In this document: positions 1-29,941 of the stretch, piece by piece
How the letters are laid out: the number at the start of each line of letters is the position of its first letter
Position numbering within the stretch: position 1 is the stretch's first letter
From: a virus
Strand: one strand, 5' to 3'
IMG/VR virus record: IMGVR_UViG_3300047463_000005
Coordinates: 1-29,941 of that record
Length of the DNA stretch: 29,941 bases
Notes under the pieces: model-generated
What the model saw: the letters and a program-made list of their open reading frames with translations, nothing else
What the model was told of the DNA's origin: nothing
The model's database searches: none
Program-made: the position numbers and the translations under genes

Positions 1-3000
1 CCTCTGTTTTTGTGATTTGCTTTTCAAGGTCTTCAATATTCTTGGTAAGAGGCTGTTGCCCCGCTTCAAAAACCGCAAAGATGCCCGAGGAGGGCTTGGA
101 TTCGTCTTGTGGGGTTGAAGGGTCATCCACAACAGCAGGAGCGCCTATAACTCGCCTTACGATGGTCTCTACGTCAGGAGAAGTTATGTTGGGCTTTGAA
201 TCAACGACGCTCTGAACGATTCTTCTGACATCACCATCAGTCAACCCCGGAGGAATAGTGATCCGAGTAACGATGCGTTCAATGTCGGCGTCAGTAATCA
301 CTGGAGAAGTCTGAACAGCACTACCTCCGGGAACTATAGAATCAACGCCCAAGTTCCCAGTGACTGTTGAAGTTCCAGCCACCCCACCGGGAACAGTTGT
401 ATTTCCACTTATTACATCTGAAGATAAACCACCTGTAACCGTTGATGTTCCAGTTAGGGTATCCGCACCACCACTAACAGTTGATGCCCCAGTTGAAGTG
501 TCTGCGCCGCCTGAAACAGTTGAGGTTCCAGTTAGGGTGTCTGTGGCCCCACCGCCGATAACAGTCTGTGCCCCGGTTAACTTATCAGTTGCTACACCAC
601 CACTAACGGTTGAAGTTCCGGTTAAGGTATCTGCACCACCCGTCGAAGTTCCCGCATTGGCTCCTTCACCAGTACCCGCAGTCTGCGTCTGAACGACAGG
701 AGTTCCTCCGGCTGTACTCGTTGCGCTTCCCGTTGCATCGCCTGAAGCAGACTTAGCAGCGTCAGCAGCAGCCTTATCTGCTGCGGCCTTAGCGAGGGCT
801 TTCGCGTCAGCCTCTGCCTTATCAGCAGCCGCTTTGTCTGCCAATGCTTTCGCATCCGCAACAGCTTTAGCGTCAGCAATAGCCTTCGCATCCGCAATAG
901 CTTTATCTTCCGCTGCTTTTGCGTCTGCTATAGCCTTGGCCTCGGCAGCAGCTCTTTCTTCTGCGGCCTTTGCGTCGGCAATCGCTTTAGCATCGGCAAT
1001 GGCTTTAGCATCAGCAGCGGCTTTATCAGCAGCCGCTTTTTCTTCTGCGGCTTTAGCTATTGCCGCCTGCCTATCAGCTTCATCAGCCGCTTCTTTTGCA
1101 GCAGCTTCTGCTTTGGCCTGCGCTTCCCGGTCCCTCGCTAAACGAGCGGCCTCCGCTAGTTCCAACTGACGATTTGCCTCAGCCGCAGATTGGTCGGATG
1201 CTGCCTTCGCATCAGCAATAGCCTTAGCATCCGCAATATCTTTATCTTCTGCCGCCTTGGTGTCAGCAGCCGCTGGTTTTGTTTCTTCCTTAGTCTCTTC
1301 TGCGGGTTTTACCTCAACCGGTTTTACTTCAACTGGTGTTACTTCCGCTGGCTTTACTTCTGTTGGCTTTACTTCTACTGGCTTAACTTCTTCCGGTTTT
1401 ACTTCAACTGGTTTTACGTCAACTGGTTTTGTTTCTGGCGCAGCATCTTGCGGTTTTGTTTCAGGAGCGGAAATAAGTACCGCAGGAACATCGGCAGGTT
1501 TTGTTGCTTCAACAGGCTTGTCGGCAAGTTGCGCTGCATTTCTATCTGCCTCCATGATCTTCGGAAGCAGTTCTTTAGACTCGTCGGGCGTCAGATCAAT
1601 CATGACCTGAGTCTCGTTGTCCATAACCTTTTGACGGCCATCTGAGAAGGCAAACAACGTAAACCCGTTTTTCATGTCATAGGTATTGACTCCTTGATCA
1701 ACTGCAATCAAAGAGAAAACAGGAAGCCCTCCGGTTTGACCAGATCCGGCCCCCATGAAAGATCTGCCACCTGTTTCTGGGGGTGTCGCAGACTCTCCTA
1801 TTGCAACACCTGTCGCTACATCTCCTCCGGTAGCAGGACGAGTCCCTTCTTCTCCGATAGAAACTTTTGAGGCTGAAAGAGTTGCTCTCCAATTAGGATT
1901 TTTGGCCTGTTCTTCTAATAACGTTTCTTCAATGATGTCATCAGAAATTCCAGCCGCCTTCATTCGGTCTACGATATTGTAAAGTCCTTGTAGTTCTGAC
2001 TCCAGCCAAATTTTAGGACCGCTTCCGGGCTGCAAAGCGTACCTAAACCGCTCATAAGGATCTCCTAACGTCGGAGCGGATACATCTGTAACTAAAACAG
2101 TGCCAGCAACCTCTCCTATGCTCTTTTGAACCCCAGAACCCGGATACGCTATCTCTTCCCCCGCAGGCGTTGAAACAACAGGCTCTAGCTTCGTTGGAAC
2201 AGGAGACGGTTCCAAAGGAGCAGGTTCAACGTTTGTCGGGCCAAAAGGATTTTTTATGACAGCTTCAACTGGAGGAAGCCTATCGTATGTTGACAAGACT
2301 GCCCATCTGTCTAGATCTGATTGCGTGAAATCATCTCGATACAGACCCTTAGACTTGGCCCAGTCAATCAGTTCTGTATTCCCTAACAGACGAGGGAAGT
2401 TTTGATACCCCACCGCTTCGGGATCAGACGGAAATGACAGATCACTTCTAACGATTGAAGGCCCAAAATCTCCAAAAGGGGACACTTCCGCAGTTGGTAA
2501 CCTTGGACCCCTTCCCCCAAAACCAAAGTCTGCCGGTTGAGCGGGGGGAGTACCTTCTCCACCAAACTCATCTGCTCCTACAGGCGCTAAAGGAGTTGGT
2601 TGCTTTATTGCAGAACTTAACTCTCGGTTGGTGTTCTTGATTGCAGCATCAATCAATGCTTTATCTAAGGGTTTACCCGTTAGTTGGGACGCAATAAACG
2701 TCCTAGCCAAATCTTTCTGGCCCGGACTTAGATCGACAAATTTCTTACCATCTACGTCTACGCTGTTTGCACCATAGGTAATAGCACCCTGAAGCGTAGC
2801 GTTAGTAAGCTTGTCTGAAAGACTACCCTCAGTATTCAGAGCAGTCGTAATAGAGTCGGCTATTGAAGCTTTTAGCTTTGGGTCTGCAATATCCCCATAA
2901 CCGGGGATCTGGTCGGCAGCAAGATTGAACATACCTCCAGTGGCGGCAGTTCCCATCGCCTTGCCAACATCTTCCCCCATGACTGCTGCACGAGCACCCG

Positions 3001-4099
3001 CAGCACCAATGTTCGCAAGAAAGTTCTGACCAGAACTAGATTCAAATATTCCTGAAGCAGCACTAGCTAATTCCCCCGCTATAACGGCCCCCACTCCTGT
3101 TCCTATGGCAGCTAATGCACCTTGTTTAATATCTCCGGTGAGTGCAGAAGTAAGAACAAACGACCCTAGGCCAGCAGCAACAGACGCTGGAACAGTTACT
3201 CCAGCAGCCCCAGCAATAAAATTCCCGATTGCCAACCCTACACCGGGAATCATCATTGAGGCAATCGCTACAAACGGGGCTATGTCTTTAATATCAAAAT
3301 CTGCTGAAGAGGCTCCTTTACTATAAAAGACTGGCAGTCCTTGGTTGTCGAACTGCATCTTGAACATTGTATTGCCACCACCAGCATAAGATCCGCTAAA
3401 AATTACGGAACCATCTGGATATACCCAGTTTGCGGCATATTGATGTTGATGACCCGGCGTAACTAAAGGCTGGCCGGTATTTTTATTGATAACAATTTTT
3501 GATACTTCACCAATTGGTTCAATTGGGACTAATCCGGGAACAGTATAAGCATCTTCGCCGCTTCCTTCTTGGACGCCTGTATAAAAATATTTTTTACCGT
3601 TCCAATTTATCTCTCGATTGTATAGCCCTAAATATGCTCCACCGCTGTAATCTAAATAATTTTGATGGGCTTGTTTTGACCCGACGCCATAATTGGGTTC
3701 CATCGCCCCTTGTTCTGCCACTCCAATCTGGTCAATGCTCGTAATACCCATATCGGCCAATTGACCGGCCAACCAACGAGCAGTTCCTTCAATACCTCCA
3801 AATGCCCCAATAGCGCCGCCCTGCCAATATTTACTAGTTCCTAAGTTATTAACCTGACCTGTAATCTGACCGGCAATCTTGTCTACCGCCTGCTCTCTTG
3901 TAAGAGTAGGAGGAGGAGGAGGGGGGGGGACGTAAGACCGGGCAACTTCTTCAGTTTGATTATAAGGAACCTCTAATTCGGGCATTTCGGCCAGAAAACC
4001 GGGTGCTCTAGCATCCCCCACAAAACTTGGCGCCCTGAATCCGGCAAGCCCCGCATTCAGTATTTCAATTTCTTCTGGAGTAAGGGATAGCATTTGCAT
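1..4099 (-). CDS. Giant repeat-rich protein, candidate DNA-ejection protein (3' partial)
   Basis: ATG at 4099 overlaps the upstream TGA; the frame has no stop to the left edge, giving at least 1366 residues. Layout: 1-65 N-terminus with seven Pro (58-64); 70-270 mixed (QNYLDYSGGAYLGLYNREIN, GHQHQYAANWVYPDG); 274-345 a long Gly/Ala hydrophobic block (PFVAIASMMIPGVGLAIGNF, ALAAIGTGVGAVIAGELASA); 345-880 mixed, Pro-rich; 884-940 a PEVK-like five-residue repeat (KPVEV); 947-1122 a TolA-like Ala/Lys/Asp/Glu helix (IADAKA repeats); 1147-1250 a Gly/Thr/Ser repeat (GTSTVSGGADTLT); 1263-1325 three helical repeats; then a coiled coil (NIEDLEKQITKTE). Large size, hydrophobic block and location right after the nozzle gene fit a podovirus ejection protein (compare P22 gp16/gp20, T7 gp14-16 by position). 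I see no lysozyme motif in the visible part. Alternatives: tail-tip or adhesin-like protein. Confidence 0.6.
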   Translation of the reverse strand, partial: MQMLSLTPEEIEILNAGLAGFRAPSFVGDARAPGFLAEMPELEVPYNQTEEVARSYVPPPPPPPTLTREQAVDKIAGQITGQVNNLGTSKYWQGGAIGAFGGIEGTARWLAGQLADMGITSIDQIGVAEQGAMEPNYGVGSKQAHQNYLDYSGGAYLGLYNREINWNGKKYFYTGVQEGSGEDAYTVPGLVPIEPIGEVSKIVINKNTGQPLVTPGHQHQYAANWVYPDGSVIFSGSYAGGGNTMFKMQFDNQGLPVFYSKGASSADFDIKDIAPFVAIASMMIPGVGLAIGNFIAGAAGVTVPASVAAGLGSFVLTSALTGDIKQGALAAIGTGVGAVIAGELASAASGIFESSSGQNFLANIGAAGARAAVMGEDVGKAMGTAATGGMFNLAADQIPGYGDIADPKLKASIADSITTALNTEGSLSDKLTNATLQGAITYGANSVDVDGKKFVDLSPGQKDLARTFIASQLTGKPLDKALIDAAIKNTNRELSSAIKQPTPLAPVGADEFGGEGTPPAQPADFGFGGRGPRLPTAEVSPFGDFGPSIVRSDLSFPSDPEAVGYQNFPRLLGNTELIDWAKSKGLYRDDFTQSDLDRWAVLSTYDRLPPVEAVIKNPFGPTNVEPAPLEPSPVPTKLEPVVSTPAGEEIAYPGSGVQKSIGEVAGTVLVTDVSAPTLGDPYERFRYALQPGSGPKIWLESELQGLYNIVDRMKAAGISDDIIEETLLEEQAKNPNWRATLSASKVSIGEEGTRPATGGDVATGVAIGESATPPETGGRSFMGAGSGQTGGLPVFSLIAVDQGVNTYDMKNGFTLFAFSDGRQKVMDNETQVMIDLTPDESKELLPKIMEADRNAAQLADKPVEATKPADVPAVLISAPETKPQDAAPETKPVDVKPVEVKPEEVKPVEVKPTEVKPAEVTPVEVKPVEVKPAEETKEETKPAAADTKAAEDKDIADAKAIADAKAASDQSAAEANRQLELAEAARLARDREAQAKAEAAAKEAADEADRQAAIAKAAEEKAAADKAAADAKAIADAKAIADAKAAEERAAAEAKAIADAKAAEDKAIADAKAIADAKAVADAKALADKAAADKAEADAKALAKAAADKAAADAAKSASGDATGSATSTAGGTPVVQTQTAGTGEGANAGTSTGGADTLTGTSTVSGGVATDKLTGAQTVIGGGATDTLTGTSTVSGGADTSTGASTVSGGADTLTGTSTVTGGLSSDVISGNTTVPGGVAGTSTVTGNLGVDSIVPGGSAVQTSPVITDADIERIVTRITIPPGLTDGDVRRIVQSVVDSKPNITSPDVETIVRRVIGAPAVVDDPSTPQDESKPSSGIFAVFEAGQQPLTKNIEDLEKQITKTE
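340..660 (-). repeat. Degenerate repeat encoding Gly/Thr/Ser units
   Basis: About seven copies of a 13-15 residue unit (GGADTLTGTSTVS) follow the helix in the same gene. Spacing and composition suggest a beta or extended structure. Third-codon differences between copies show it is not a recent expansion. Confidence 0.75.
735..1256 (-). repeat. Degenerate repeat encoding TolA-like Ala/Lys/Asp helix
   Basis: Hexapeptide-like units IADAKA, AADKAA and AAEDKA recur for about 175 residues in the large gene, predicting one very long charged single helix as in TolA domain II. The plus strand in another frame gives an Ala/Ser-rich open frame, which is a shadow. Confidence 0.8.
1300..1432 (-). repeat. 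15-bp tandem repeat encoding PEVK-like tract
   Basis: About nine copies of a 15-bp unit (plus strand about TTTTACTTCAACTGG) encode K-P-x-E-V, with x varying (V, E, T, A). It makes a stiff, charged, Pro-rich linker like TonB or titin PEVK segments. The copies differ at synonymous and position-3 residues. Confidence 0.85.
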
Positions 4100-4353
4100 C
4101 ACACTCTCGGATTCACTGCTGATAACAGGGCAGCAGCCCAGTCAGACCAATCACTGAAGTCATCCGTTTGAGGAATGGCTTCGTTAGCAAACACATCTAT
4201 TGCCTTTAACGCATTACCCCACAACTTCCAGTCTGTCTGTTCTGTAGGTATCTCTAACTGTTGAGCAGCATACTGTTCAACCATAAGAGCAGCCCATGAC
4301 TCAAACGTCTGGTATCTGGGGTCGTAAACTAAAGGTGATTGGGTACTAGGCAT
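4099..4353 (-). CDS. Small acidic helical protein, 84 aa
   Basis: The product MPSTQSPLVYDPRYQTFESW then ALMVEQYAAQQLEIP is acidic with five Trp (DWKLWGNALKAIDVF, FSDWSDWAAALLS). Predicted as three short helices; no Cys or membrane span. It is placed between the nozzle gene (one-base TAATG overlap) and the giant downstream gene (TGATG overlap), a position where related podoviruses keep a small conserved protein of unknown role. It may be a tail-assembly factor or a small ejected protein; I do not recognise a characterised family. Confidence 0.7.
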   Translation of the reverse strand: MPSTQSPLVYDPRYQTFESWAALMVEQYAAQQLEIPTEQTDWKLWGNALKAIDVFANEAIPQTDDFSDWSDWAAALLSAVNPRV

Positions 4354-18898: not shown

Positions 18899-19981
18899 CT
18901 AGCACACCTTGCCGCCGCGCTTCTTTGAGACTGTTACCGATTCTTTTGTCTCGGTCACAGTTTTGGGCTTAGTGAAGTACTCTTTACCCTTTTGGTATAG
19001 CTCTTTCACTATGCCAAGAGGATTCAAAGCATCCTCAACACCTCGTCGCGCTTGTGCAGCAGTAGCTTGAGGGTCTGCAACAGTTAGACGATCCTGCTTG
19101 ATTTGTTCTGCCGTTCGCTGATCTGACGAACCGCCGTCCTTCATCTTGCGACCGTACTTACTGTAGACCTCGTTGCTATAGGCTTTCGCCTGACGCATCG
19201 CAGTTGCATTCTCTGCTTTGTTCGCCTTTAGTAGACGAGCCTCAGCAGGAGTTACCGAGCCACCCTTTTTGAAGGTGCCAGACAACTGGTTGATGCTTAC
19301 AGGCGTAGACGGCTTTTTGCGGCCTTGGGGCATCGCTACAGGGGCACCGCTATCAACAACTCCCCCCGTAGCGTAGTGCTTTTTTGCAGCACCACCCTTT
19401 TTGTAGCCGCCAGCGTTAGATTTGGCAACACCGCCGGTCTTGTAACCACCGGCATTACCCATCTTTACGCCTTCCGTCTTGGCGGGCGAATGGTCAGGCT
19501 TGGCAGTGTGCATCATCGTCTCCCCTTTCTTGGATTCGATAATTCCACCACCCTTAAACCCACCTTGACCGTAAACCACACCACCCGTCTTCAAGCCTTT
19601 ATGAGCTTTACTGGCAGGCATGGACTCATGCTTCTTGAGTTCCTTGGCGGTCTTTGCCATCTTGGTCATCTCAGCCTTGTGAGAGGCTTTCGATTCCCCG
19701 CCCTCTTTCATCATACGACCCGCCATACCCACCGGAGCCGCCGGAGCAGCAGCAGCAGGCATAGCCATCATCGCACGACGACGAGCAGCCATCGACGGAC
19801 GCCTCGGAGCCATAGCAGGAGCCATACCCCCACGCGCAGGCATAGAGGGTTCTGCGGTCATGGTCCCCAGACCCGACATACCACCGGCTTGCATCTTCTT
19901 GACGGTGCCACCTTTCTTCAGTTTGAGTTCAACTGAAGGTTCGGTGGTCATCATCTTAACCATCGGCTTGAACTGGCCCAT
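18899..19981 (-). CDS. Basic KxGG-repeat protein
   Basis: The product has 360 residues, is very basic, of low complexity and probably mostly disordered. The motif K-x-G-G followed by a small or hydrophobic residue recurs: LKKGGTVKKM (21-30), MKEGG (91-95), LKTGGVV (130-136), YKTGGVA (180-186), YKKGGAA (193-199), YATGGVV (203-209), FKKGGSV (237-243), MKDGG (280-284) and KKRGGKVC at the end. Residues 45-90 are Met/Pro/Ala/Arg-rich. Only 240-340 look helical (TPAEARLLKANKAENATAMR). Proteins of this style are known from marine and freshwater phage genomes but I know of no assigned function. It is the last gene before a terminator-like hairpin, in the head module. DNA or RNA binding inside the capsid, or a site for proteolysis or partner binding, are possible readings. 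Confidence 0.75.
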   Translation of the reverse strand: MGQFKPMVKMMTTEPSVELKLKKGGTVKKMQAGGMSGLGTMTAEPSMPARGGMAPAMAPRRPSMAARRRAMMAMPAAAAPAAPVGMAGRMMKEGGESKASHKAEMTKMAKTAKELKKHESMPASKAHKGLKTGGVVYGQGGFKGGGIIESKKGETMMHTAKPDHSPAKTEGVKMGNAGGYKTGGVAKSNAGGYKKGGAAKKHYATGGVVDSGAPVAMPQGRKKPSTPVSINQLSGTFKKGGSVTPAEARLLKANKAENATAMRQAKAYSNEVYSKYGRKMKDGGSSDQRTAEQIKQDRLTVADPQATAAQARRGVEDALNPLGIVKELYQKGKEYFTKPKTVTETKESVTVSKKRGGKVC

Positions 19982-22857: not shown

Positions 22858-23784
22858 TTAGCTCCTTCGTGCTTCTTGGGCGTATCGTTTAATCATTCGG
22901 GCGCGTTTATCTGGGTCTTCCCAGAATCCTGCGTCCTTCATCGCTCGGACCTGCTCGGGACTCAATACAAACGAGTTCCCTCCTCGCGGTGATGATTCAC
23001 GACCGGATCCAGTAATTACACTTCTGGGCTTCCTCCTTGGTTCGTTATACTCATTGTACCTATGCGGTAATCGTTTCTGCAAGCGATTATCTAGTTCGTC
23101 CCAATACTCCTCGGTATTAGGATCCCAACCCTCCTTATGAAGACGTTGGTCGATAATCTTTGCAATCTGACTATCTTCGTCATTTCCGGCAGGATCGTAC
23201 CAAGAGTTGTTTTCCATCCACTGATTGGCATGACGCATCAGTTGAGGATTCACCGCACCCGTTTCTTGGGTCTGTGTCCTTGCGGCTTGCTCTTTGGCTC
23301 GTTTTAAGGCTTCTACACGACCCCGAGTCTCATACCAAAGCTCTTGAGCTTTAGCCATCTCGGAACCATTAGAACGATTCCCTGCCTCTGTCAGTTTAGC
23401 CATGGCGTACTGAAGACGCAGTTCCTCATCTTCAATCGCCTTATCTAGCCTTGCCAGATCAGAACTGTGCGTCTTTCTCTCGATTACCGATAGACGCTCC
23501 ATCAAGTCCTGATTCTGCCTCTGCAACAACTCCAGACGACGATCTTTCTCTTCGTTCGTCCGTTTGATCAAATCCTTCTTCGCCCTGCGTCTGGCCCGCC
23601 TAGCGGATCGTACAGCCTCGGTATCGTCAGGATGATCTTCGTCTTCTACCTCACCCCCGTCTGCTTTCCCTACAGGGGCTTCATCTTCTTCTTTGAGAAC
23701 CAAATCATCAGGAAGCTCTACAACGGCTGAACCGTCAGTCTCTTCTTTGATGTTCAGATCCTCTTTTACTTTAGGATCGTTCAT
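22858..23784 (-). CDS. Scaffolding-like acidic coiled-coil protein
   Basis: This is a 308-residue, highly charged protein with no hydrophobic core. Residues 1-58 are strongly acidic (LKEEDEAP, VEDEDHPDD), 62-190 form a long charged helix or coiled coil (RRAKKDLIKRTNEEKDRR, RLELLQRQNQDLMERLSVI), and the C-terminus is basic and Arg-rich (RRKPRS, KRYAQEARRS). Charge polarity, coiled coil and position between portal and capsid genes are the usual signature of a capsid scaffolding protein. I see no sequence-level match to a named family. It contains DGSAVVELP (17-25), shared with the portal, and KADGG (40-44), shared with a downstream basic protein. ATGA overlap with the co-chaperonin gene. Confidence 0.65.
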   Translation of the reverse strand: MNDPKVKEDLNIKEETDGSAVVELPDDLVLKEEDEAPVGKADGGEVEDEDHPDDTEAVRSARRARRRAKKDLIKRTNEEKDRRLELLQRQNQDLMERLSVIERKTHSSDLARLDKAIEDEELRLQYAMAKLTEAGNRSNGSEMAKAQELWYETRGRVEALKRAKEQAARTQTQETGAVNPQLMRHANQWMENNSWYDPAGNDEDSQIAKIIDQRLHKEGWDPNTEEYWDELDNRLQKRLPHRYNEYNEPRRKPRSVITGSGRESSPRGGNSFVLSPEQVRAMKDAGFWEDPDKRARMIKRYAQEARRS

Positions 23785-24212
23785 ACGAATGCCTTCATGG
23801 ACAAGGGATCAGTTGTTACCTTTGCGATAACTTCGTGATCGTTAAAAATGGCAAACAACGCAGGTTCTTCGTCGCCCTCTACCGGAACTTCCCACCTATC
23901 CCCGCCCCACTTGGGAACGCGAATATAGTCACCGGAGTCACACCAAGAACCTTCGGGCCAAGCCTGCATCGTGTCCCTGTGCTTGAAAGCCAAAGGACCC
24001 ATAGCAACGACTTTAGCCACCATGTTTTGCCACTTTTCAGACTCCTTTGTCTCTGACACCAGAATCAGTCCTCCTTGAGACTTCTTCTTAGCGCGGCGCA
24101 GTTGAACAAGGATTCGTCCACCAAGGGGAGTAGCACCGGGATCGACACTCGGGAATGCCCAAGCAAGTTCAGCTTCGTTAGAAGCTACCGGCTCATTCAT
24201 CTTCATCGTCAT
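23781..24212 (-). CDS. GroES-like co-chaperonin (Cpn10 family)
   Basis: The 143-residue product resembles the 10 kDa co-chaperonins that cap the GroEL folding chamber. PLGGRILVQLRR (29-40) matches the first conserved strand. KKSQGGLILVSE (43-54) looks like the mobile loop that docks on GroEL, with the characteristic Gly-Gly-hydrophobic triplet. VAKVVAMGP (66-73) and SGDYIRVPKWGG (93-104) match later conserved strands (V.aVG.G and GD.V.). Host GroES is about 95 residues and T4 gp31 is 111; this one has about 25 extra N-terminal residues and a short insertion. Its place between portal and capsid genes suggests it adapts host GroEL for the major capsid protein, as gp31 does for T4 gp23. Three near ATGs (24212, 24206, 24200) leave the exact start open. 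It overlaps the scaffold-like gene by ATGA. Confidence 0.8.
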   Translation of the reverse strand: MTMKMNEPVASNEAELAWAFPSVDPGATPLGGRILVQLRRAKKKSQGGLILVSETKESEKWQNMVAKVVAMGPLAFKHRDTMQAWPEGSWCDSGDYIRVPKWGGDRWEVPVEGDEEPALFAIFNDHEVIAKVTTDPLSMKAFV

Positions 24213-24509: not shown

Positions 24510-27032
24510 CTATTGGATTGTGTAATCAATAATTGTTTTATCTTGATCTAGTTTCAACCTAGCAGCGTCTCTTGTCAATCTGGCAGTTTCAATACGCTCC
24601 TTGGTTTCCTGATCTCCAGTAGCTATTGCCATTCTCAACTGGAGTTCCTCCATCTCCATCTGCTGTTTCTGTTGAAGTTCCAGCATCTGAAGTTCGAGTT
24701 TCTGCTGCATCTCCTGACCTTTAAGTTGTAGTTCGGCTTTATCACGTTCCGTCCTACGCTGGGTCTCTGCCATACTGGTCTGGAGAAGCACTTGTCCGTC
24801 AGGCGTCAAATCAGGCTTAGGCTTAAACTGTTGAGCCTGCTGAACCATCTGTTGGATGACCGGCATGATGCCTTTCAAAGTCTGTTCAGCATCCATGTCA
24901 ACGTGCTGAGATGCCGCCCCAAACATCTTGTCTACCGGCCTCGGATCAGTAATTAGCTCGTAATCCTCTAGTTTCTGACCCAAAGATTGATGGATGTAGC
25001 CTTCCATACGGTTCAGATACCACAAGGCTATATGCTGCTTAATGTGCTCCATCGCTTTCGGAAGGAAACTCGGAGCAATCAACGGATTTCCGCCCAATAC
25101 AGGATTCTTTGCATAGTCCAAATGAGCCTGTATGTGCCCCAAATGGTCCTGTTCGGGATAAGCAAAGGCTGACTGACCAATACTCATCGCTACGTTCTCA
25201 TTTGCAGGATCCTGCTTCTGAGGACCGGGCATATCTGTCATCAGTTCGTTGATAGCAGGGACTTTTAACTGCTTCAAGAAGCGTGATATGACGATTCTTC
25301 GATTAAAGAGGTCCGGGTTCTTCTCTGCCATCGACAGAACGGCTTGAGACTGGGCCATTCGTTGAGTTTCAGAGAAGATGTGAGGATCACTGACAGGAAT
25401 AACGTCCGATACTTTTGCAAAGTCTTCCCTCTTGATGTCCAGATCAACCATGTCCTCAGACTTGGACATATCCTCCAAGTACCAACGGTTGATCCTCTGA
25501 AGAATCTTCAGAACCCTTGTCTGGGACTTGTGAAGCCTCGCGTGAATGCTCGAAAAGACCGCCGCTCCCTGCTCGATTAGAGCCTGCGTAGTCCCCACAG
25601 GAGCATTAGAGGTGATGTCTGCGATCTTTTCCTCTGCCGTGGTCACTACACCCTTGGCAGCAGTCGTCAGAAAGCCCATCAACTGGAACAACACCTGACT
25701 CGGAGGATTAAATGGCATCGGCATCGCAATCTTGCGGATGTCATCGACCCCCGGAGCGGCTTCCAACTCGGCTACTTGGGTCACTTCGACCTGTTGAGAC
25801 TGACCCGATAGCTTCGCTCCCTTCAACTTCAGCATCGTCGCTGCGTTGTTGATATGGGCAGAGTCCAGCAAAGCCCTCAAAGAGCCTGTAAGGGCCGCAG
25901 AAAGCCCTCCAATCAGGTGCGGAAGACCAATCGCATACGCACCACGCCAAGGAATGAACTTGAACTCGACGATCCAGTCGAGCTTCGTCATCGTTTCGTC
26001 GCCTTCTTCCCAATTTCGGTACAAACCGACGACTTCCGTCTCCAGTTCGTCGATCATCAGGATGTAAGGGGCCAGTTCTCCCTTGGTATAGGGGTCAGAA
26101 TCAATCTCCAACCATGTGTAAACGTGATAAACACGCCGTACACCGTCTTCGTTGTCGTTTTCTGACTTTCCCTCAATCTTATTCGTAGCTTTTTGAGCCA
26201 AAGTAGGCTCTGGGTCCATCGTTGCACGAATGAAAGACGTATCTCGGTACAGCCCAGACCGGATTCTTTGCTGGTACTCGTAGTTCGAGATGTCGTGAAC
26301 CTCTGTTACCCGCTGTGCCGTATAGAAATTGGTCGCAGCAAAGGGCAAAACTACGTTGTCAATCGGCAAAAACTCCGCACAAGGACGCTTTTGTCTCTCG
26401 TCATACCAAAGTTTCAGGTACTGACTACCCCCCAAAGGCAGTTGAGTCAGCATCTGCTCTACTTCATCTGAGAACTCAGGGATCTGTTCCGTCAACTGCC
26501 AGTTCATGAAGTCCCGTTTACGCTCGGCAACTTCGGTTTTCTCCTTCGTTGCCTCACCCAGAATCTTCGTCCGGGTCGGCCCATCAGGAGGGAACAGCTC
26601 TTTAATGGCTCTGGAGGCGAAATCTACGCATCCCTCAGCCATGATCGGATGCACAACCTTCGAAGCGCCGTTAAACGTAGCCCCTCCGGGGGCATCATTG
26701 CCCAAACCCGTCCTGCGAATCCCTTCTTCGTACTGCTTGTCCCTCTGCTTACGGGCGTCTTTGTCCTTCTCGATGAGTTCGATGTACCTCAGAGCGAAGG
26801 AAGCGATCTCCAGAGAGTCACCAGTGTCGGCAATGTTCTCGTAAAAGTCAGGATTCTCAATCGGGCCTTCAGGAAGCGTGACAACCGCAGACCCATCCGG
26901 CAGTTCTTCAATCTCGGATTCGGACAGATTGATGTCTAGTTCCGGTTCTGCGTCTTGTCGGAGCAGATCACCTTGAGCCAAACCCGGTACGTTCCGACCG
27001 TAGTCTTGTTCGATGGGGAATTCGGTTGCCAT
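24510..27032 (-). CDS. Portal protein (P22-like)
   Basis: This 840-residue protein should form the dodecameric ring at one capsid vertex through which DNA is packaged and released. The core has the conserved podovirus portal stretch FNGASKVVHPIMAEGCVDFA near residues 118-138, followed by KELFPPDGP and LPLGGSQYLKLW. The length is close to P22 gp1 (about 725) with extra sequence at the C-terminus. Residues about 750-840 are a Gln/Glu/Lys-rich continuous helix (METQRR, ELQLKGQEMQQ) that fits the long barrel helix of P22 portals. The N-terminus is acidic and carries DGSAVVTLP (46-54), a motif repeated in the scaffold-like protein. CAGGAAC precedes the ATG at 27032. The gene starts one base after the stop of the PcfJ-like gene and heads the head-assembly cluster. 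Confidence 0.9.
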   Translation of the reverse strand: MATEFPIEQDYGRNVPGLAQGDLLRQDAEPELDINLSESEIEELPDGSAVVTLPEGPIENPDFYENIADTGDSLEIASFALRYIELIEKDKDARKQRDKQYEEGIRRTGLGNDAPGGATFNGASKVVHPIMAEGCVDFASRAIKELFPPDGPTRTKILGEATKEKTEVAERKRDFMNWQLTEQIPEFSDEVEQMLTQLPLGGSQYLKLWYDERQKRPCAEFLPIDNVVLPFAATNFYTAQRVTEVHDISNYEYQQRIRSGLYRDTSFIRATMDPEPTLAQKATNKIEGKSENDNEDGVRRVYHVYTWLEIDSDPYTKGELAPYILMIDELETEVVGLYRNWEEGDETMTKLDWIVEFKFIPWRGAYAIGLPHLIGGLSAALTGSLRALLDSAHINNAATMLKLKGAKLSGQSQQVEVTQVAELEAAPGVDDIRKIAMPMPFNPPSQVLFQLMGFLTTAAKGVVTTAEEKIADITSNAPVGTTQALIEQGAAVFSSIHARLHKSQTRVLKILQRINRWYLEDMSKSEDMVDLDIKREDFAKVSDVIPVSDPHIFSETQRMAQSQAVLSMAEKNPDLFNRRIVISRFLKQLKVPAINELMTDMPGPQKQDPANENVAMSIGQSAFAYPEQDHLGHIQAHLDYAKNPVLGGNPLIAPSFLPKAMEHIKQHIALWYLNRMEGYIHQSLGQKLEDYELITDPRPVDKMFGAASQHVDMDAEQTLKGIMPVIQQMVQQAQQFKPKPDLTPDGQVLLQTSMAETQRRTERDKAELQLKGQEMQQKLELQMLELQQKQQMEMEELQLRMAIATGDQETKERIETARLTRDAARLKLDQDKTIIDYTIQ

Positions 27033-27033
27033 C

Positions 27034-29941
27034 TTAGTTCCTGTTCAGGGCGGCAAGGCCACCGTCCTTTTTTTCGACACGATAGTCTGGCATCGGCGTT
27101 GATTTGAAGTACGGCATTAGCACCCCCTCGCCAGTATCAATCATCTTGAGAATGTATTCGCGCACATTCTTCGGCGTCGGGTTGATACCCATTCCTTGCA
27201 TAGTGTACGCAGCTTGACGCTCAAGAAGATCTAAGGCATCTCCTCTTGGAGACTTTAATCCTGTTAACTCCCCGCCGCCAAACCATCGCCCAGCTTGCGC
27301 CATGCCACCGGGGATTCCTAACTCATTAGCAATGTCCAGCATTCTGCTTTCAGCGGGACCGTATTCGGTTGGACTGAATCCACCCTGCTCGGTAAAGTAC
27401 GGATGATAACGACTACCTTGCGTTTGACCGGCAGACTCGTGAACATCTAGCACCATGCTTTTACCAAAATCGCCTGCTTTTTGAGTTCCATAAGTTGGGA
27501 TTTTGTAGTTCGTGGGAATGTCTGCTTTAAGCAAATCACGCATATTCAAATTGCCCTCAATGACTTGCCTGACCCCTTCTCGATGTACAGGCATCAAAGG
27601 CAAACCAGTTCCGTACTGCTGCTTGAACTTTGCCATTTCTGATTTAACAGTGTTCTCATCTAACGGCAAGCCTCTCGCCGCCATATCTCTCATGAACTGG
27701 CCTACTGCCATTTCGTTCATGATTGAATTGCGAGCACTGGCAGGTGCCGTTTGATACACAAACTGTTCAAACTTCTCCGCTGGGATACCTCTTTCCATCG
27801 CCGCTACTTTTAGTGGATACAAACTTCCGTAAAACGTCTCTCCACCAAGCGGCAACCCTCGTTGTATTTGACCCTTGATCAACTCCCTATTGCGAGGATC
27901 ACTGTAAATCTCATCAATGTACTCTCCACTTGCCCTTGGAGCTTCATACCTTGGGAAACGGGTTTGCGTAACCCCCGGAAATCCTTCTATTGCGTCCTTG
28001 ATTAACGACCGATCAAACGCCTGTAACTCGCCTCTTGGGGGCGTCCACGGCTCCGTTGGTTGTTTCAAAAAATCTTCTGCGCGTTTGATGCGTTTCTCTA
28101 CTTCAGCAGGAACATTCATCATTCGCTTAGTTGCTGGGTCGCTGTACGAAGACCTTTGCAAAGCACCGTATTGCGCCTCAAGTCTTGGTTTCTCTTGCCG
28201 TTCCCACTTTAACTTTGCAATAGCATCCCGCTCTGCCTTTTTTGCCACCTCTTCTATCGACAATTTTGGATTGTCTTTTGCAAACCGCTCTGCTGAACGT
28301 TTGATTGCGTTCTCAATTGCGGCATCGCTAGCTATCACATCAGTATTGTTGTTTTCGGCATCTTTTCGCAATCTTTCAATTGCGCTAGCCGTCGCTTGCT
28401 CAATCGGGCTTGATGTGGTTTTTGTTACTGTACCAACCTCTGTTGCTTTAGCCGCCCTTGCAGCAGCAGGCAATCCCTTCAAAGAGGCTAATCCACCCTT
28501 GGCTTTAGTTATATCTTTCTCGTTATATTCTACATCTGGGATTGGTTTAACACCCGGCAAAACCAAATAACTAGTGCCATGCTCATCTGCCATTTCAACA
28601 GCTTTCTTTCCCAGCAAATTGGCAACTTCTCCTCTAATACGTTGTGCCTCCCAACTTGCTTCTCCTGACGAATCCTCACGAAAGATTCTCATCAATTTAT
28701 CATCATCAACTTTATGCGCCGCATCTTTGATAACAGCTTCAAACGCATCATTTATATCTTCATCTTTTAACCACGGCATAGCTTTCTTCAAAACGCCAGT
28801 AAGTTTCAGGTCGTCCATAGAGTCAAGCATTTGTTGCGAAAGGATTGCTTCTTTTGGCACATCCATCCTATAAACAGACCCATCACCATGACTTGCTGCA
28901 ACCTTACGGTCTTGGCTTGCAAAAATTCCACCAAAAATGTTCCCCGGACTTGTACCGCCCTTTATTTCTTCTAATCCTATGTTGCCCCCATGATAAAGAC
29001 GTTCTTTACCTTTACTATCTTCTGACGGCAACACATCTACAGGTTTAGTGACTTTGGACGCCTTGGCAGCAGCAGGAAGGTTCTTCAGACCCCTCAGAGA
29101 ACCACCTCCGGCCATCTGAACTTCGTTGGCTAGCCTCAAGGCTTGCGTGAATGCCTTGTCTTCAGGCATCCCTTGCTCTGTCAGACGAGATTTGATGGTG
29201 TCGGTGTTAGTTGCCAGACCGCCATCTTTAAAATTCTCACCAACAATGTTTCCATAAGCGTCATATTTTAAACGCTTACCTTGAGGAACAATCGCGTTAT
29301 GCAATGTTTGAATTTGATCTCCAGTAAGCCAATGATGATCAGGCACTGGTAGATTCAATGATTCAATCATTCTTTGTTCATTGTCATTAAACACATCGGT
29401 GTAACGACGCAATCCGGCATTACGGACATCGTTGATTTGTGCCCAGTTTCCACTTTTTACAAAATCCTGAACGAAAGGCAGATAGTCTTCTTTAGGCGCT
29501 CGGTTGCCTTTGCCTTTGATTTGAATAATGGTTGGTTTTTGATCTGCATTCAATTGTTGCAGTTTTTGTTGAATGTACTGATCAACTGCTTTCGGCCCGC
29601 CTTTTTTTAAGGCATCAGTTACACCGCCCGGAAACTGTTCGTACACATCATCTTCTGCATAAATTTTAGCTGGTTTTACCTCAATTGTTACATGAGGTTC
29701 ACCTTTAGCGTCTCGCAACGAGAAGATTTGGCTCTTGCCTTCAAGAACATCAGGACAGTAACTTCCAACGCAATGACCCATCGTCTTACCTTCGTAAGAC
29801 AAAGCCTCTTCGGTTTTCTTGGCGTCGTTCTTGTCGTGCAGTTCTAGCCACTTGTAGCCTTCAGGATAGCTCTTTACAACCGGCAACCCTTCCTGCTGCT
29901 GTAAAGCGGCTCTGGCGGCTTCCTTGGCCTTCTCTTGGTCA
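27034..29941 (-). CDS. PcfJ-like / ADP-ribosyltransferase-like multidomain phage protein (5' partial)
   Basis: The frame is open to the right edge, so the true start lies outside the window; 968 residues are visible. Numbering from an internal TTG at 29886, residues 1-146 match the PcfJ-like family: MGHCVGSYC at 36-44, IFSLRD, HVTIEV and a later IQIKGKGN. The role of PcfJ is not established. Residues about 295-450 (LYHGG, FGGIFAS, SHGDGSVYRMDVP) look like an ADP-ribosyltransferase fold, inferred by motif only. The C-terminal 450 residues are helical, then carry a phage-type region (RGLPLGGETFYGS) of unknown function. Gly-Gly linkers (FKDGGLA, MAGGGSLRG, KAKGGLASLKG, KKDGGLAALN) separate the parts, and two are followed by a near-repeat LPAAAKA/LPAAARA. 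It lies directly upstream of the portal gene, so it may be a late gene product packaged or ejected with DNA. The PcfJ call is firm; the ART call is tentative. Confidence 0.75.
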   Translation of the reverse strand, partial: DQEKAKEAARAALQQQEGLPVVKSYPEGYKWLELHDKNDAKKTEEALSYEGKTMGHCVGSYCPDVLEGKSQIFSLRDAKGEPHVTIEVKPAKIYAEDDVYEQFPGGVTDALKKGGPKAVDQYIQQKLQQLNADQKPTIIQIKGKGNRAPKEDYLPFVQDFVKSGNWAQINDVRNAGLRRYTDVFNDNEQRMIESLNLPVPDHHWLTGDQIQTLHNAIVPQGKRLKYDAYGNIVGENFKDGGLATNTDTIKSRLTEQGMPEDKAFTQALRLANEVQMAGGGSLRGLKNLPAAAKASKVTKPVDVLPSEDSKGKERLYHGGNIGLEEIKGGTSPGNIFGGIFASQDRKVAASHGDGSVYRMDVPKEAILSQQMLDSMDDLKLTGVLKKAMPWLKDEDINDAFEAVIKDAAHKVDDDKLMRIFREDSSGEASWEAQRIRGEVANLLGKKAVEMADEHGTSYLVLPGVKPIPDVEYNEKDITKAKGGLASLKGLPAAARAAKATEVGTVTKTTSSPIEQATASAIERLRKDAENNNTDVIASDAAIENAIKRSAERFAKDNPKLSIEEVAKKAERDAIAKLKWERQEKPRLEAQYGALQRSSYSDPATKRMMNVPAEVEKRIKRAEDFLKQPTEPWTPPRGELQAFDRSLIKDAIEGFPGVTQTRFPRYEAPRASGEYIDEIYSDPRNRELIKGQIQRGLPLGGETFYGSLYPLKVAAMERGIPAEKFEQFVYQTAPASARNSIMNEMAVGQFMRDMAARGLPLDENTVKSEMAKFKQQYGTGLPLMPVHREGVRQVIEGNLNMRDLLKADIPTNYKIPTYGTQKAGDFGKSMVLDVHESAGQTQGSRYHPYFTEQGGFSPTEYGPAESRMLDIANELGIPGGMAQAGRWFGGGELTGLKSPRGDALDLLERQAAYTMQGMGINPTPKNVREYILKMIDTGEGVLMPYFKSTPMPDYRVEKKDGGLAALNRN

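Follow-up and report, generated by a model that had tools for sequence, protein, structure and literature searches.

Phage polyvalent proteins are a published class in which unrelated domains share a single chain encoded in a late, virion-gene setting (Iyer et al. 2017, PMC5512222). Metallopeptidase domains in these proteins have been proposed to release the other domains, and for P1 DarA and DdrB processing precedes packaging (PMC5512222, PMC12810830). A second, separately described group is the AcrIF11 family of ADP-ribosyltransferases (ARTs). The D115A substitution in AcrIF11 abolishes CRISPR inhibition (PMC12421852). AcrIF11 and its described relatives have been treated as small stand-alone proteins. 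Here, we analyse a viral contig of 29,941 nucleotides (the window; IMG/VR record IMGVR_UViG_3300047463_000005) in which an AcrIF11-family domain is predicted within a large multidomain protein. The features are collected in Table 1.

Table 1. Features of the window discussed in the text (minus sign, complementary strand; residue numbers refer to the visible polyvalent chain).
Feature	Position	Strand	Details
Polyvalent protein gene	27034..29941	-	968+ aa; 5′ end lost at contig end
PcfJ-like domain, best-matching stretch	29665..29820	-	residues 41-92; PF14284, E 1.6e-9
GG element 1, KDGGLA	29212..29229	-	residues 238-243; also in homologue L009
GG element 2, AGGGSLRGLKNLPAAAKA	29059..29112	-	residues 277-294
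AcrIF11-family ADP-ribosyltransferase domain	28537..29004	-	residues about 313-468
ART domain key residues			H317, F336/F340, H351, D452, E453
GG element 3, KGGLASLKGLPAAARA	28453..28500	-	residues 481-496; homologous to element 2
All-helical C-terminal module, conserved	27070..28395	-	residues 516-957
C-terminal GG element, KKDGGLA	27052..27072	-	residues 957-963
Portal protein gene (context)	24510..27032	-	phrog_1216, E 1.6e-18
KxGG-repeat basic protein, starts MGQFKPMVKM	18899..19981	-	15 GG pairs, 9 as KxGG; after capsid gene

Gene organization and genomic context

The polyvalent gene lies immediately upstream of the portal gene, whose ATG is one base past its stop codon. Its ORF is open at the 5′ end because the record stops at 29941 bases, and the visible 968 residues are therefore part of the protein only; the original prediction gave neither the strand nor this truncation. 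From N- to C-terminus, the visible modules are a PcfJ domain, the ART domain, and a helical C-terminal module of ∼450 residues, set apart from one another by Gly-Gly (GG) elements. The homologue L009, which is 83% identical to the window protein over their shared part, has about 420 extra N-terminal residues that comprise an Ala/Gly-rich leader and then the start of the PcfJ-like module.

The PcfJ-like character of the N-terminus, first proposed from the sequence alone, is borne out by a PF14284 match of 38.1 bits against a gathering cut-off of 25. When L009 3379-5394 is compared with the window PcfJ module, one internal stretch is unrelated sequence (KIYAEDDVYEQFPGG... versus GPMTQREAKEQ... 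in the window), while the rest is 83% identical. Swapping therefore occurs inside the module too. The C-terminal module is 58–78% identical across 51 relatives and its predicted model (pLDDT 78) is all-helical. It has no match in the PDB by sequence; a fold search of the PDB returned a best solved match of Z 5.4 to its first 83 residues, which is not meaningful, and BFVD gave weak matches only, to uncharacterised phage proteins. We also used this module to look for the host via prophages, and a scan of bacterial genomes found no relative. Other proteins with the same C-terminal module carry ART-PolyVal (PF18760), LPD23, GNAT, and PcfJ modules; PF18838 is among the families they carry.

The capsid protein of the window shares 90% identity with its counterpart in an uncultured Manatee Spring phage and 78% with those in Caulobacter phages RW and GB2A. 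The slot held by the polyvalent gene varies among related phages. In RW, a tRNA is all that separates the annotated terminase from the next large gene. DSL-LC04 encodes a PcfJ-like protein, and MW202545 (L142, 7791-10463) encodes a GP88-domain protein that otherwise differs but carries the same GG elements (KAKGGQVHK and KAEGGNVQ). We therefore regard the slot as an accessory locus of variable content. Between the portal and capsid genes, the window encodes a GroES-type co-chaperonin (phrog_3188; 23781-24212, minus strand), which is also present in the related phages that we read. At the other contig end, an ORF that runs off the record (2-4102, minus strand; 1367+ residues) contains long Ala/Asp/Lys-rich (ADAKAIADAKA) and GTSTVSGGADTLTG-like repeats.

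The window protein combines several disparate domains in one chain (PcfJ, an AcrIF11-type ART, and the helical C-terminal module) and its gene sits directly ahead of the portal gene, the late or virion-gene setting of polyvalent proteins. Through its homologues it also shares domains with catalogued polyvalent proteins (PF18760, PF18838; LPD38, InPase, LPD23). On these sequence features, we assign it to the known polyvalent class. The modular effector envisaged in the original prediction thus corresponds to a published class, encoded beside head genes and built from domains common to its relatives.

The ART module resembles AcrIF11

The segment containing LYHGG, GGIFAS, and SHGD was initially described as ART-like. 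The proteins of solved structure nearest to it by sequence are two AcrIF11 structures (PDB 6KYF and 8DWQ), with a profile match to 6KYF at E 8.2e-27. An AlphaFold model (pLDDT 90), for which window and viral-contig sequences were the sole input, has an ART fold; its superposition on 6KYF, the top fold match, gives Z 17.6 over 135 residues. The next match is AcrIF11Pae2 (Z 9.1), followed by a cyanophage A4 pre-ejectosome protein at Z 7.3, which is too low to stand alone. The fold matches also include classical ARTs such as diphtheria toxin. Pfam ART-PolyVal (PF18760) does not match the module at E up to 1. Sequence and model together identify the module as a close structural relative of AcrIF11. 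The polyvalent class was already known; the ART of the window protein is placed here more precisely than in the original prediction.

The catalytic H-F-H-D set of AcrIF11 is present in the window ART, and a DEHG loop is common to both. By alignment, with the 6KYF numbering corrected for the tag, D452-E453 corresponds to D115-E116 of AcrIF11. Across 43 ART sequences, F336, G338, F340, W430, Q433, D452, and E453 are invariant and H317 is kept in 39; position 351 is histidine in 37 and tyrosine in five, the latter including several embedded relatives. The active site is intact-looking and the module is a predicted enzyme. Two of the checks proposed at the outset, structure prediction and catalytic residues among homologues, came out in favour of an ART. 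The small stand-alone gene product typical of the AcrIF11 family is not what we find here, as the domain is embedded in a chain of at least 968 residues.

A scan of viral contigs for the ART family returned 49 loci, most of them stand-alone ORFs of about 150–200 residues. Twelve sequences, including that of the window, are embedded in chains of 267 to 3270 residues, and the largest of these carry LPD38, InPase, LPD23, or helicase domains, as polyvalent proteins typically do. Embedded copies lie near a portal gene in contigs L097, L101, and L129 and near a terminase gene in L093, L096, and L129; other structural genes are also found near embedded copies. The L096 ART is also bracketed by two homologous GG elements, GGEVSMDAMRVAVWGKPDHKQFGG and GGSVTNDAMRVALWNKPDHKQFGG, which differ in sequence from those of the window; this is an independent repeat of the GG-flanked arrangement. 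In a tree of the family, the stand-alone and embedded labels change twice, versus 10.6 times for shuffled labels. Both stand-alone groups are placed among embedded ones, at moderate supports and where long branches meet. With that reservation about long branches, the embedded relatives may give AcrIF11 an evolutionary setting.

Gly-Gly elements mark module boundaries

All four GG linkers named in the original prediction lie where it placed them. Its observation that the second and third repeat each other and flank the ART likewise holds: they align with a score of 59, compared with a mean of 19.7 for 889 random pairs of 45-residue segments from the same protein, three of which reached 59. Among 62 distinct proteins sharing the C-terminal module, homology breakpoints form clusters, and GG junction motifs lie no more than 8 residues from these at 2 to 4 times the expected frequency; the z values are inflated by related proteins.

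A GG pair stands at the C-terminal module's end in all 35 unique complete homologues, usually in the setting [KR][KA][EK]GG[EA]V. The pair is kept whether the chain stops 9–35 residues further on or continues for another 113–702, and residues from about +4 onward are not conserved. Four relatives (L016, L021, L022, and L055) encode the effector part and the C-terminal module as separate genes. The first gene ends in GGLAAIKRRK or GGLAAITRRK, and the second has MARGGAAKQ immediately ahead of the C-terminal module. In the fused relative L015, the joint GGLAHFDRGGAAKKEVKEW contains both tags in tandem. Given tags on both sides of the split and in tandem at this joint, the GG doublets look like an end tag and a start tag brought together by fusion.

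GG motifs occur at 2.59 per 1000 residues in these proteins versus 0.73 in other contig ORFs. The main other carrier is the basic KxGG-repeat protein, a link that is one of association only. A loose version of the pattern is found at 38 of 543 chain ends and in 314 of 8080 random internal segments. These counts argue that GG does not tag the C-termini of gene products in general, and therefore confine the signal to certain proteins. Homologues of the KxGG-repeat protein occur in many relatives. The window and MW202545 each encode both it and a polyvalent protein, and the region of RW that we read showed neither. A strict partnership of the two is contradicted by DSL-LC04, where the region read encodes a PcfJ protein with GG but nothing rich in KxGG. 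Separately, a scaffold-like protein of the window (22858-23784, minus strand), so labelled from its position and coiled-coil look with no family match, holds the same GG element, KADGGEVEDEDHPDD, which is not kept in all homologues.

Proposed function and alternative explanations

We consider it probable that the window encodes a virion-delivered polyvalent effector with an AcrIF11-family ART, assembled from GG-tagged modules. The location of its gene and the published class together suggest that the protein is made with the head proteins, probably enters the capsid, and is ejected along with the DNA. The ART would then modify a host protein by ADP-ribosylation as infection begins, ahead of phage gene expression; such early action in the host would follow from published work on the class. 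A CRISPR effector (e.g., Cas8f) is the obvious candidate target, though the target may be another protein and homology to AcrIF11 does not by itself establish CRISPR in that role. The protein appears to have been built by joining separate modules, each with its own GG element, and these elements probably signal docking, packaging, or processing instead of serving as plain linkers.

A different possibility, put forward in the original prediction and in outline by Iyer et al. (2017), is that the GG elements are cut sites at which a protease would release the ART and other modules. The processing of DarA and DdrB and the release proposed for metallopeptidase domains of the class are both precedents. 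Moreover, some relatives encode their modules as separate genes split at a GG junction, so free modules are tolerated. However, HExxH is absent from L009 and from the visible 968 residues of the window protein, whose own N-terminus is missing. Among 48 longer homologues, an HExx(x)H string occurs in eight, about three of them in a typical peptidase context. We recognised no head protease among the window proteins searched, and GG is retained even at the ends of chains, with nothing beyond to be freed. Release by cutting is, in our assessment, doubtful; the GG element is no less likely to signal packaging or docking than to be a cut site, and less likely to be a plain linker.

The elements might instead be functionless, flexible linkers left at domain joints, with the protein acting as one chain. 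Gly-rich joints between domains are common, and other dipeptides of a joint-like kind, AA and KA among them, are likewise enriched at the breakpoints. Plain linkers would not be expected to show a fixed-setting GG that is invariant at 35 of 35 module ends, even near the chain end, nor a motif concentrated in the polyvalent and KxGG-repeat proteins, and we regard this explanation as quite improbable. Recombination sites acting at the DNA level, with the peptide irrelevant, would account for modules that swap at GG places and for the 21 of 25 bases shared by window linkers 2 and 3 over one stretch, but when junction copies in one protein are compared, their codons agree in 14 of 38 cases, near the codon-usage expectation and no more than it would predict, and we consider this idea very improbable.

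With no codon-level conservation at the junctions, the peptide is therefore the conserved thing. Its sequence pattern marks the GG elements as a conserved peptide signature, not random linkers, and a peptide under selection as a docking, packaging, or processing signal is the most likely role suggested by this conservation. A bolder extension of the virion-delivered effector is that capsids are loaded through a dedicated GG peptide tag shared by the polyvalent modules and the KxGG-repeat protein, so that an AcrIF11-type enzyme is injected ready-made and CRISPR is inactivated before expression begins; we think this unlikely in its full form. An AcrIF11-family module in proteins that, on the class model, are injected nonetheless suggests pre-loaded counter-defence. 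The GG element may also offer a short sequence handle on the packaging or processing of such effectors.

Comparison with known systems

AcrIF11 (PDB 6KYF, 8DWQ; PMC12421852) is the closest relative of the ART module, sharing sequence homology, the ART fold, the H-F-H-D set, and the DEHG loop. It is a small stand-alone protein, whereas the window ART is one module of a large protein beside a portal gene. The AcrIF11 family is characterised by ADP-ribosylation of Csy1 and a block of type I-F CRISPR; for the window ART, Csy1/Cas8f is a candidate substrate. A text search limited to open-licence papers found none linking AcrIF11 with polyvalent proteins, which does not prove novelty.

Like the phage polyvalent proteins of Iyer et al. 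(2017, PMC5512222), the window protein joins unrelated modules in one chain in a late head-gene setting, and its relatives carry ART-PolyVal, LPD23, LPD38, and InPase domains. It differs in that its ART is of the AcrIF11 type rather than ART-PolyVal, and in that no metallopeptidase motif was seen in the visible chain; an in-chain metallopeptidase is frequent, not universal, in the class. Neither PcfJ nor linkers turned up in a text search of that paper.

A large internal virion protein of cyanophage A4 (the pre-ejectosome protein; PDB 9K3A chain B) likewise has an ART-like fold, at residues 1418-1604. Its likeness to the window ART amounts to 16% identity and the Z score below the safe level, with no profile sequence match. 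T4 Alt and P1 DarA and DdrB are packaged in the head and delivered with the DNA, as we infer for the window protein. DarA is cut by a protease, and none like it was recognised among the window proteins searched. T4 Alt is an ART, as is the window module, but with an R-S-E active site (PMC5512222) in place of the AcrIF11-type set.
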